A model generated the notes under the pieces. The model had not been told where the DNA came from and searched no databases. It saw only the letters and a program-made list of their open reading frames with translations. This document shows, in pieces, positions 124 through 12,546 of a stretch of DNA of 12,631 nt (positions within the stretch are counted from its first letter, which is position 1; every line of letters begins with the position of its first letter). Origin of the DNA: Spirochaetaceae bacterium (lineage in GTDB: Bacteria; Spirochaetota; Spirochaetia; Treponematales; Breznakiellaceae); the NCBI GenBank assembly GCA_031255115.1, contig JAIRTD010000096.1, positions 1-12,631 on the forward strand, read 5' to 3'. A program made the translations under genes and the position numbers.

Positions 124-199
124 TCCCCGGTATCGTTCATTTTGAAGATTGGCTCAAAAGTGATGATCAATCCCGGCTTGTTTCATGATCTGGTTTGCC
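124..199. repeat. 76-bp direct repeat, copy A
   Basis: This stretch is identical base for base to 910-985 (offset 786 bp, same orientation). Copy B is the 3' end of hicA plus its downstream region. Copy A sits at the 3' end of the small antitoxin-like gene and supplies its last codons and stop. It looks like the product of a recombination or duplication that grafted a hicA tail onto another gene. The match ends sharply on both sides. Confidence 0.93.
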
Positions 200-424
200 C
201 TGGCCCGGGAAACTGACGTAATGCGGGGTTATGCCGCATTCGGTAAGGAATGCGTCTGAGCGTTTTTGTATATCCGCGCGCCGTTCCTCCGCCGTCATGT
301 TCGCCCGCCTGTCCTGAAGCATAAGCCGGATAGCGTGGACTTCCCGAACAGGATCCGGCGTTTCGCTTAGCCCCGGATCATTCAAAAGCCGGGGGTCATT
401 TAGATATTCCTGGACGGTTTTCAT
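167..424 (-). CDS. Small acidic antitoxin-like partner of the PIN protein (chimeric C-terminus)
   Basis: This 85-residue soluble protein is rich in charged residues (EVHAIRLMLQDRRANMTAEERR) and has no membrane segment. Its ATG overlaps the stop of the PIN-domain gene (ATGA), so the two are translationally coupled and probably form a toxin-antitoxin pair in the order toxin then antitoxin. I do not recognise a named family; the antitoxin role is inferred from size and coupling. The last ten codons (GKPDHETSRD) and stop lie inside repeat copy A. There the DNA is the hicA 3' end read in another frame, so the natural C-terminus has probably been replaced and the protein may be altered or non-functional. 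Confidence 0.68.
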   Translation of the reverse strand: MKTVQEYLNDPRLLNDPGLSETPDPVREVHAIRLMLQDRRANMTAEERRADIQKRSDAFLTECGITPHYVSFPGQGKPDHETSRD

Positions 425-903
425 AACTCCAACACCTCCGCAGGTTTGTATATGCCTATACCCTTGTACCCTTCCCGAATATTTACCCGGCGAACCCGTT
501 CAACGGTCCAGGGACGGGCTATGTGCCCAAAATTCAGGCTCACTATAAAGTCTAAGCCGTTAGCCGCTGTAATGGCAATATGCGCCGCGTCTGTGGGATA
601 AGCGGCCGGCACGGCTTCTTCCTGAATGTAAAGGGCCGCAAGCCGTTCCGCCTCATCGCTCTGGCCAAGAAACCTGATACCGTAATTGGCGATGAGCCCC
701 TTCATCTGTTCCCGTCTTTCGATATTTGTTTCCGCCTCCAATTCATCGGTAGTATATGCCGAAGTATACGGTTCAAACTGCCCGGCTTTTATCAGGTCAA
801 ATATCTGGTGAACCTGGCTTTTCAATACCCGATAACCCGGTGCGTCCGGGGCATAGTAGAAATTGAACATCGTAGTTTCAAGATAGATTTTCGGGATAAT
901 CAT
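421..903 (-). CDS. PIN-domain protein, VapC-like toxin candidate
   Basis: This 160-residue protein has the layout of a PIN-domain ribonuclease. It has an N-terminal beta strand with an acidic residue (IYLETT, E9), a middle acidic residue (DELE, E54), then TDAAHIAIT with D105 and LDFIVSLNFGHI near 118-128. These would be the metal-binding acids of an RNA-cutting VapC-type toxin. The first acid is E where PIN domains normally have D. The start is supported by GGAGG four bases upstream, supplied by repeat copy B and its flank. It overlaps the downstream antitoxin-like gene by four bases and follows the broken hicA. Family assignment is fairly secure; toxicity is inferred. Confidence 0.72.
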   Translation of the reverse strand: MIIPKIYLETTMFNFYYAPDAPGYRVLKSQVHQIFDLIKAGQFEPYTSAYTTDELEAETNIERREQMKGLIANYGIRFLGQSDEAERLAALYIQEEAVPAAYPTDAAHIAITAANGLDFIVSLNFGHIARPWTVERVRRVNIREGYKGIGIYKPAEVLEL

Positions 904-1137: not shown

Positions 1138-1350
1138 TTAGACGTGTACCTCGGCAAGCCGTTCCGCCTTGAAGTTGATTTTAATATCCGCGTCCTTAAA
1201 GCCCAAAAGGTCGGGAACCGCGTATTTAACGCGCTCCATGAGGGCGTCGAGGGAACCGGATTCCAGGGCAAGGCCCGGCACGTCTTCACTTGACGCAAGC
1301 CAGACATAGGCCTCATCATCCCAGGTCAACAAAACGGTGTATTCGTTCAT
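1138..1350 (-). CDS. hicB: HicB/DUF1902-type antitoxin
   Basis: This 70-residue protein matches the DUF1902/HicB-like partial RNase-H-fold antitoxins: MNEYTVLLTWDDEAYVWLASSEDVPGLALES, then a helix and a basic C-terminus. HicB proteins bind HicA and usually repress their own operon. AGGAG lies six bases before the ATG. The gene sits directly upstream of the broken hicA, giving the antitoxin-first order common for DUF1902 pairs. No separate DNA-binding domain is visible. With the toxin disrupted it may be an orphan antitoxin or may neutralise related toxins elsewhere in the genome. Confidence 0.8.
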   Translation of the reverse strand: MNEYTVLLTWDDEAYVWLASSEDVPGLALESGSLDALMERVKYAVPDLLGFKDADIKINFKAERLAEVHV

Positions 1351-1442: not shown

Positions 1443-1733
1443 TTAGGTCGCCCGTTTTTGCTGTACGCTCAGTTTGAAGCCAAGCTTATCAAGGACTTTT
1501 ACTACGGTTATAAATGACGGATTTCCCCCGAAGGAAAATGCCTTATATAACCCTTTCCGATCAAGGTTTAATTCCCTGGCAAGTTGTACCATGCCTTTTG
1601 ATCTGGCTATATCGCCTATAACGGAAAGAAGAAATTCGGGATCGTTTTCCGCAAGAGCGGCTTCAAGGGTTGCTATTACATCTTCTTTGGTTTCGATATA
1701 GCCGGTAGGGTCAAAATCAGCTACAAGGGGCAT
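1443..1733 (-). CDS. Possible internally initiated free antitoxin (residues 94-189 of the fusion)
   Basis: Met94 lies exactly where the separate antidote protein normally begins, and AGGGAG (1748-1743) sits nine bases ahead of its ATG. A second, shorter product of 96 residues containing only the HTH antitoxin is therefore plausible. It would help keep antitoxin in excess over the fused chain. This is inferred from the sequence alone. Confidence 0.45.
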   Translation of the reverse strand: MPLVADFDPTGYIETKEDVIATLEAALAENDPEFLLSVIGDIARSKGMVQLARELNLDRKGLYKAFSFGGNPSFITVVKVLDKLGFKLSVQQKRAT

Positions 1734-2012
1734 TTTTGCAAGCTCCCTGGCCCTGACAATATCCGCTTCCGGGGTAGTTTTATCGCTGCCGCAAAGCAGA
1801 ATAATGATTTCTTCTCCGGTATCCTTGAAGTAAATCCGATAGCCGGGGCCGTAATCAATACGTATTTTGGAGGCTTCCCCCAGGAAACGATTGTCTCCGG
1901 GGTTTCTCTCGGCAAGCCATTTGACCCTGGTAAGAATACGGGCTATAGCTTGAGAATCCCGTAACTTCTTTAACCTTTTGCCAAATTCGCGTGTCCTGCG
2001 TATTATCCGCAT
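1443..2012 (-). CDS. Fused RelE/HigB-type toxin and HTH antitoxin in one polypeptide
   Basis: This 189-residue protein joins two genes that are normally separate. Residues 1-93 match the compact RelE-superfamily 'addiction module killer' toxin: basic N-terminal helices (REFGKRLKKLRD), YGPGYRIYF at 54-62 and ILLCGSDK at 71-78. Residues 94-189 match its usual antidote protein: an acidic lead, DIARSKGMVQLARELNLDRKGLYKAFS with a helix-turn-helix around 134-160, then GNPSFITVVKVLDKLGFKL. There is no stop between them. Met94 (ATG at 1733-1731) has AGGGAG nine bases upstream, so free antitoxin could also be made from the same mRNA. The first ATG has no Shine-Dalgarno sequence and may be read from a leaderless transcript. 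Domain identities are confident; whether the fusion is active is unknown. Confidence 0.85.
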   Translation of the reverse strand: MRIIRRTREFGKRLKKLRDSQAIARILTRVKWLAERNPGDNRFLGEASKIRIDYGPGYRIYFKDTGEEIIILLCGSDKTTPEADIVRARELAKMPLVADFDPTGYIETKEDVIATLEAALAENDPEFLLSVIGDIARSKGMVQLARELNLDRKGLYKAFSFGGNPSFITVVKVLDKLGFKLSVQQKRAT

Positions 2013-2018
2013 ATTTTA

Positions 2019-2047
2019 AGTGTAGACTATAGTCCCCAAAACATCAA
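2019..2047 (-). promoter_or_regulatory. Promoter of the fused TA gene, -10 close to ATG
   Basis: On the minus strand TTGATG (2047-2042), a 17-base spacer and TACACT (2024-2019) precede the ATG by only six bases, predicting transcription from the A of the start codon. An alternative -10, TATAGT, lies within the spacer but lacks a well-placed -35. Confidence 0.5.
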
Positions 2048-2144
2048 GCAGGGTTTGAAAGTTTTTTATCTGAATCCAGGGCTTGTGCGCTCTTCCTCCC
2101 GTTGGTCGGCGGGCTAAACCCTTCGAGTCCCGAATTTAGTGGCT

Positions 2145-2197: not shown

Positions 2198-2271
<74 letters not shown>

Positions 2272-11589: not shown

Positions 11590-12546
11590 TTATTTTCCAA
11601 GCTGTTTTTTTAGTTCGGCAAGCTCCTGGAACACAAGATCCAATTGCTTCTTCATCGAATCCCGTTCCTGCAAGATCATATGCAGTTCCCGGGTTATCGC
11701 GTCCCGCTCCTGTGCGACCGTGTTCAGTTCCTGAGCAACCGTGTCCCGTTCCTGAGCAATCGCGTCCCGCTCCTGCATAACCGCGTCCCGCTCCTGCGTT
11801 AAGCATCTGAGATCATACGCGGCCTGGGCCTGGTCCATAAGGTACTTGTCCCGGCTTATGCGCCGCATTTCTTCTACCTGGGATTGCGGTAATTCCAGAA
11901 TCGCCTCTCCTGCCATGGCTATACCCTCCTCCATTTCCAGCAAGCGGTTTACCAGATTCAAACGCTCCGGTTCCGCCGCGTAACGCAAAAACAGCCCCCA
12001 CCGTTCCTGCCCGCTGACCGCTTCAAGCGGCTTTTCCACCAGCTCTTCGAGCTTCTCCAATTCTAGCGTAATGACCGATGTTAGTCCACCAAGAGCTATC
12101 CCCTGGTCCTGGTCGTAGTACTCAAACGAATGAACCGCGTGGCGGTCCCGGTACAGTTTGTCCCCCAGAATGCTTATCTGGTAGCTTCGTTTTAATTCGG
12201 AAAACTCCCTGCCCCGAATATCCTGGGACGCGAAAAGCCTGCTGAGAAAATACTCGATTCTAAACGGCTCGCCTCCCTTTGGCCAGAGCGTCATTTCGAT
12301 ATTGGCCAATTCGCCTGAGTTAAAAGTACAGGCAATGTCGTAGCGAATCTGCCGGTCCGTCGCGGACTGGGCAGCCGGTTCGTTGGCGATAACCGTAACG
12401 ATGTCCAGACTGCGCTGCAGCGTAGCCTCCAGCAGGGACCTGAGGGCCTTCCGCGAAGCCTCGGTTTCCTGGGTAAAAACAGCCTTAAAGATCTTGTCGT
12501 ATCTAAGATCGACAAGCCGGTCTTCGGTAAGTTGTACTCTTTTCAT
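11590..12546 (-). CDS. Rpn/YhgA-family PD-(D/E)XK nuclease with coiled-coil tail
   Basis: This 318-residue protein matches the Rpn (recombination-promoting nuclease, 'putative transposase' PF12784-like) family: LRYDKIFKAVFTQE (14-27), RYDIACTFNSGELANIEMT (68-86), and FLSRLFASQDIRGREFSELKRSYQISIL. D70 and E84 occupy nuclease core positions, but position 86, usually Q or K, is T, so DNA cleavage may be reduced. A helical middle part leads to residues 250-298, seven heptads based on AQERDAV, forming a coiled coil. GGAGG is six bases before the ATG. In other bacteria Rpn proteins promote recombination or act in phage defence through short C-terminal products; nothing here shows which. Confidence 0.85.
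   Translation of the reverse strand: MKRVQLTEDRLVDLRYDKIFKAVFTQETEASRKALRSLLEATLQRSLDIVTVIANEPAAQSATDRQIRYDIACTFNSGELANIEMTLWPKGGEPFRIEYFLSRLFASQDIRGREFSELKRSYQISILGDKLYRDRHAVHSFEYYDQDQGIALGGLTSVITLELEKLEELVEKPLEAVSGQERWGLFLRYAAEPERLNLVNRLLEMEEGIAMAGEAILELPQSQVEEMRRISRDKYLMDQAQAAYDLRCLTQERDAVMQERDAIAQERDTVAQELNTVAQERDAITRELHMILQERDSMKKQLDLVFQELAELKKQLGK
11653..11799. repeat. Seven degenerate 21-bp tandem repeats in the Rpn gene
   Basis: Each 21-bp unit encodes one heptad of the TQERDAV/MQERDAI/AQERDTV type. The units differ by a few bases. This region can gain or lose units by slippage without a frame change, altering coiled-coil length. Confidence 0.8.

Follow-up and report, generated by a model that had tools for sequence, protein, structure and literature searches.

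The closest described relatives of the locus reported here are toxin-antitoxin (TA) pairs of the HI1419/HI1420 type, which are type II systems whose two members match TIGR02683 and TIGR02684. We take this pair to correspond to COG3657/COG3636. Another kind of arrangement is represented by CapRel, a single-chain TA in which toxin and antitoxin are covalently linked, and both CapRel and EzeT belong to toxin families other than that of the spirochaete protein described below. For EzeT, a covalent link between toxin and antitoxin has been described (PMC4826407), and the COG3657/COG3636 pair is listed in the available text of PMC2701414. Most pertinent is an mBio survey of 2025, whose available text reports 195 fusions of BECR toxins with antitoxins, including 69 of the gp49-HTH type (PMC11980606). 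Because gp49-HTH fusions are already catalogued there, the spirochaete fusion is a further case of a known kind. Fused TA genes have been catalogued, yet their origin and their live or dead state have seldom been traced. What is new here is a likely origin for one such gene, together with an asymmetric loss of conserved residues.

The window (the whole 12,631-nucleotide stretch of DNA that was analyzed) comes from a spirochaete draft genome. A first-pass annotation had claimed that a toxin and its antitoxin are encoded as one 189-residue chain. Indeed, a single frame without an internal stop runs through both domains, on the minus strand, which that annotation had left unstated, and each half scores above the curated cut-off of its profile. 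Residues 4 to 93 match TIGR02683 (E 3.2e-24; 85.1 bits, cut-off 62.85), and residues 98 to 183 match TIGR02684 (E 8.1e-25; 86.9 bits, cut-off 53.7). The antitoxin half also matches PF21716 (E 1e-21; score 77, cut-off 27). Because both halves are approximately full length against their profiles, chance is excluded. The same matches bear out the assignment to a RelE/HigB-class toxin and an HTH antitoxin, and the YGPGYR motif attributed to the toxin half is present at residues 54 to 59. The toxin residues R51, R59, and K78 are also retained, and the two halves adjoin without a spacer. The protein is single-copy in its own draft assembly (323 contigs, 74% complete). Coordinates are collected in Table 1.

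Table 1. Features of the window and of comparable loci in other records
Feature	Position	Strand	Description
Toxin-antitoxin fusion ORF	1443..2012	-	189 codons plus stop, one open frame
Toxin half, residues 1-96	1725..2012	-	TIGR02683, HI1419-type, RelE/HigB fold; MPL included as probable toxin tail
Antitoxin half, residues 97-189	1446..1724	-	TIGR02684/PF21716 HTH, HI1420-type
Seam, codons 94-99	1716..1733	-	Best-fitting site of a 38-nt deletion relative to L014
Promoter/operator-like stretch	2013..2050	-	TTGATG, then TATAGTCTACACTT ending 5 nt before ATG
tRNA-Arg	2198..2271	-	Directly upstream of the fusion
hicA-like frame, directly downstream of a DUF1902 frame; both beside the fusion	940-1122 and 1138-1350	-	
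PIN-like protein	421-903	-	PF13470, 19 bits, below cut-off 27
85-residue frame	167-424	-	No Pfam match; overlaps the PIN-like frame
PDDEXK_2/Rpn-type protein	11590-12546	-	C-terminal run of QERD-rich repeats
Second natural toxin-antitoxin fusion, genome G806	L158:1658-2281	-	208 codons from inferred GTG start
Toxin remnant and intact antitoxin in one open frame	L069 2914-3303		Cyanobacterial record
Toxin remnant and intact antitoxin in one open frame	L041 3178-3579		Cyanobacterial record

The fusion shares its two domains, its toxin-first order, and the promoter arrangement found in spirochaetes with HI1419/HI1420-type pairs. However, those pairs occupy two frames, whereas the fusion has one frame in place of the separate toxin and antitoxin frames of a two-gene operon, and its toxin half is altered at near-invariant sites. 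The domain order is likewise that of the gp49-HTH fusions described in the available text of PMC11980606, in which the HTH antitoxin comes after a Gp49-class toxin within a single chain, but the toxin half of the spirochaete fusion itself misses the gathering score of PF05973 (Gp49), with no match at E values up to 1. This profile is passed by the toxins of four of five relatives, and because the fusion misses it, assignment of the fusion toxin to the Gp49 class rests on these relatives. EzeT and CapRel resemble the fusion in linking toxin and antitoxin, although the fusion is sporadic and its activity is putative.

Matches to the fusion occur in 13 of 39 genomes, in 99 of 195 genomes of the family, and in 29 of 392 sampled genomes of the phylum (the source genome counted in each case). 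Among the 39, the fused open frame is present only in the source genome; among the matches listed for the family and the phylum, this ORF is likewise the only one to be fused, spanning both halves stop-free in the family comparison. Deduplication of 79 named-genome loci, together with those from the source genome, the 39 genomes, and the 195 family genomes, yielded 66 pairs. The 65 pairs other than the fusion are without exception not one frame. Such toxins and antitoxins are normally encoded by two adjacent genes. The nearest named relatives are from Treponema sp., Spirochaetaceae, and Spirochaetia, and the states seen in relatives are two genes, a broken toxin, or an antitoxin alone. The first-pass annotation had suggested looking for a conserved fusion in related genomes, and none was seen among the matches listed in the 195 family and 392 phylum genomes; within that scope, a fusion conserved in the lineage is rejected.

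Mobile elements were also covered. Matches were found in 750 plasmid records, and none of the best 60 is annotated as a single fused product, with eight of these rows (H10, H11, H13, H16, H33, H35, H54, and H60) carrying at most one telling feature name. Six plasmid rows that align in one piece (H8, H12, H17, H31, H32, and H52) are annotated as two genes. Thirteen phage records match, with features as annotated, and 32 pattern matches in viral contigs include no relative. PADLOC gave no match to the fusion, nor did the PDB when searched with the fusion sequence, and no report of this locus was recognized among the papers listed in the literature searches, supplementary tables aside.

A sister two-gene locus, L014 (the same match as L002 and L026), points to one deletion as the likely origin. 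Its junction reads AREIAKNPVEEE and a stop, then 11 nt containing GGAG, and then the antitoxin start MKKITVADFDP. The junction of the fusion reads ARELAKMPLVADFDP and is 38 nt shorter, with only short repeats at the ends of the difference. A single 38-nt deletion relative to L014 gives 37 of 48 matches with its edge between the end of codon 96 and codon 98, and a poorer fit (33 of 48) when placed at the M94 boundary. The later place is preferred by one or two matches in L095 and L101, and L030 is split between the two; this comparison used L014, L095, L101, and L030, leaving out L099 and L100 for misplaced anchors and L110 for ambiguity. In L014, L099, L030, L095, L101, and L051, the toxin tail has a P and then L, V, or F at the place of MPL. 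The MPL of the fusion is probably toxin tail rather than antitoxin start, although the margin of fit is modest, and the halves probably meet near residues 96/97 rather than exactly at 93/94, where the seam had been placed as the antitoxin start. Judging from these alignments, the fusion most likely arose by deletion across the gene junction, which either placement of the break requires. The earlier suggestion that one stop codon was lost is ruled out by the 38-nt difference and by the L014 antitoxin lying in another frame.

Conserved residues have been lost unevenly. The toxin half departs at 6 of the 25 columns that are at least 90% conserved over 60 other toxins (W13R, R32W, G36R, E49K, G76S, and Q81P), and the antitoxin half departs at none of the 18 such columns over 65 other antitoxins (Fisher P 0.032). 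Within a close set of 27 rows, the fusion toxin is changed at 6 of 27 columns, the next highest value is 3, and 16 rows have no change; the longer-branched rows L097 and L085 have one toxin departure each, and the fusion antitoxin is changed at 1 of 22 columns. In the whole toxin set, five further toxins have five or six departures and come from a distant subgroup with approximately 36 to 42% identity. Distant two-gene toxins departing at six columns are L117, the second copy in L103, L008, and L005. Seven departures are found in L036, which is cut by a contig end and belongs to the same subgroup. By leave-one-out profile score, the fusion toxin is second lowest of 61 (L036 being the lowest), and the fusion antitoxin is 29th from the bottom of 66.

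The pairwise dN/dS between the fusion and L014 is 0.11 at a dS of 1.79, which is near saturation and makes branch-wise dN/dS unusable. This low value implies that most of the divergence took place under purifying selection and therefore that relaxation, if real, was late. In relative-rate tests, the fusion toxin differs significantly from L014 with outgroups L099 (18:7) and L100 (19:6) and not with L095, L015, L108, or L116. The fusion antitoxin is also faster than that of L014 with L099 (10:2) and L100 (17:2), the latter not being a clean outgroup because it groups with L014 in the antitoxin tree. The low dN/dS and the mixed rate tests speak against an old decay. The first-pass annotation had held that its proposal would be refuted if close relatives all had two genes and this one showed relaxed selection, and this pattern is largely, though not wholly, what we find. 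The fusion does stand alone among the family matches listed. For relaxed selection the evidence is divided, with near-invariant toxin residues lost but overall dN/dS low and rate tests mixed.

The toxin fold of the fusion is predicted with confidence by AlphaFold2 (alignment A3, consisting of the fusion, 29 of 52 usable toxins, and 4 of 63 usable antitoxins), and the relative placement of the domains is not trusted at a pTM of 0.61. Structural comparison supports a HigB/RelE fold. Because the aligned rows mainly cover residues 1 to 96, the antitoxin fold is barely tested by structure. Identity to HigB1 (HigB-TAC) of M. tuberculosis and to HigB of S. pneumoniae (PDB 7awk, 6af4) is 19 to 20% over the aligned part. 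Both are encoded by separate genes, unlike the fusion. When the PDB was searched with the toxin profile, HigB1 was the one match, and a weak one (E 0.022). In this weak alignment, position 49 of the fusion falls opposite the glutamate of ELR in HigB1, which corresponds to E66, and the alignment of the K loop that follows is uncertain. According to the available text of PMC9098466, E66 of HigB-TAC plays a part in activity, which alanine at this position partly inhibits, and the effect of Q98A is mild. HigB1 likewise carries a proline (KTP) at the position aligned with residue 81, where the fusion has Q81P.

Loss of the toxin beside a retained antitoxin also occurs elsewhere in the family. The toxin upstream is intact at 76 of 127 distinct antitoxin places (including the fusion, whose toxin was classed as intact by span), broken at 27, and absent at 21, and 3 places leave no room for one, such that the toxin is broken or absent at 48 of 127. 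Intact toxins are accompanied by an antitoxin in 76 of 76 cases. Neither set of proportions is unbiased, because the loci were fetched by likeness to the fusion. Within the same genus, the antitoxin in G002:C157 and in G003:C259 stands next to a toxin that lacks a large internal part, and a divergent two-gene pair (38 to 39% identity) is present in G001 and G002. Two cyanobacterial records hold an open frame in which only what remains of a toxin is fused with an intact antitoxin (Table 1), and L058 is a weaker third case. The role of chromosomal antitoxins as anti-addiction modules, and the decay of TA systems, are discussed in the available text of PMC2654758.

The explanation we favor, and consider somewhat likelier to be right than wrong, is that the fusion is an antitoxin and autorepressor whose translation runs through a crippled toxin's frame, with the toxin disarmed and the antitoxin retained. 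A decayed pair was one of the two options first offered, and it matches this reading given the near-invariant toxin residues lost, which suggest disarmament. The ancestor would have been a two-gene HI1419/HI1420-type operon beside tRNA-Arg. Loss of approximately 38 nt across the junction would have taken the toxin tail and stop, along with the ribosome site, start codon, and first residues of the antitoxin. Because such a deletion removes its start signals, the antitoxin would now be produced only by translation of the toxin frame, whose second half it forms (or from M94). The toxin domain, having lost several near-invariant residues, is probably weak or inactive. Points that count against decay are the open toxin frame, the retained R51, R59, and K78, the confidently predicted toxin fold, the proline shared with HigB1, and the six departures of some distant two-gene toxins. 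The HTH half, on the favored reading, would remain able to fold, to bind the toxin domain, and to act as a repressor at the upstream operator-like site, and it may also neutralize related toxins entering the cell. The same promoter-like pattern lies upstream of two-gene relatives, where TTGAC is found in 21 of 26 other spirochaete rows, TTGAT in three (L108, L114, and L047), and neither in two (L116 and L101).

A working single-chain TA, the other option first offered, in which an active toxin domain is restrained in cis by its HTH partner and freed by proteolysis or another trigger, as in EzeT and CapRel, is unlikely in our view. The open frame, the low overall dN/dS, and the predicted toxin fold are compatible with it, as are the 69 gp49-HTH fusions reported in the available text of PMC11980606. 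Set against these are the lost near-invariant residues, including the E of ELR, the lack of conservation of the fusion among the relatives' matches listed, and the missing spacer between the halves. Further encouragement for a working single chain comes from genome G806, the only stop-free fusion among the matches listed for the phylum around the cyanobacterial locus L016 (149 of 386 genomes match). In its own family, 129 of 192 genomes match (G806 included), and G806 is the only full-length stop-free row among the matches listed, the others being unfused; in the near relative G728, toxin and antitoxin (84% and 87% identity) occupy different frames. The G806 protein retains all six toxin residues lost in the spirochaete fusion and departs at two other conserved columns, and it thus provides a natural comparison. 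Against TIGR02683 its toxin half reaches 114.6 bits, but its antitoxin half reaches only 18.6 bits against TIGR02684, below the cut-off, which may be common to its two-gene relatives. With two such proteins, fusions therefore recur, though sporadically. It is conceivable, if unlikely, that small deletions at the junction give rise again and again to HI1419/HI1420 proteins of one chain, in phyla as unrelated as those of this spirochaete and of G806, and that live TA switches which inhibit themselves are among them. If true, a path by which evolution turns an operon into a one-protein sensor would have been caught at its first step.

Less probable still is that one frame yields two products, the full chain and a free antitoxin from the ATG of codon 94, such that the module works approximately like a two-gene pair. 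M94 (1731-1733) has AGGGAG 9 nt upstream and could, on sequence grounds, serve as a fortuitous internal start. By eye, no Shine-Dalgarno sequence is obvious before the toxin start of the fusion, and the same is true of toxin starts in HI1419-type relatives. However, M94 fits the toxin tail somewhat better than an antitoxin start, as the junction fits indicate, and AGGGAG is probably mere coding sequence because it is present in L014 too, whose antitoxin starts elsewhere.

More doubtful again is the view that the locus is neutral debris, with neither half functional and the frame open through recency alone. The sporadic occurrence of the fusion and the neighboring hicA-like frame that lacks a start codon would suit it, as would the corresponding region of G001 from the same genus, where the matching tRNA-Arg region is present and the adjoining TA side is unmatched (approximately 1,500 nt beyond being covered, per the length of locus L125). 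Yet the antitoxin half has no departures at its 18 conserved columns, and the same antitoxin family is retained beside broken toxins elsewhere. A sequence or assembly artefact at the seam is very improbable: the assembly is a draft, as detailed above, and the seam borders two homopolymer runs (A5 and C4), at which an error of 1 nt would exchange the frames, but the difference from L014 is 38 nt rather than 1 nt with only short end repeats, the toxin has lost conserved residues well away from the seam, and other remnant-antitoxin open frames exist.

Other candidate TA genes lie near the fusion. The frame beside the fusion that follows a stop and lacks a start codon is presumably hicA-like, and the DUF1902 frame is one we assume to be HicB-like. 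Together they may form a second pair, in which the toxin is damaged and the antitoxin has been kept. The PIN-like and 85-residue frames, which belong to the same cluster, could be a third TA-like pair. In the interval between the fusion and tRNA-Arg, positions 2084 to 2126 match G000:C49:6557-6600 of the same genome at 86%, and positions 2123 to 2132 are an inverted copy of 2207 to 2216 inside tRNA-Arg. These repeats, spanning 2084 to 2132, may mark an integration end.
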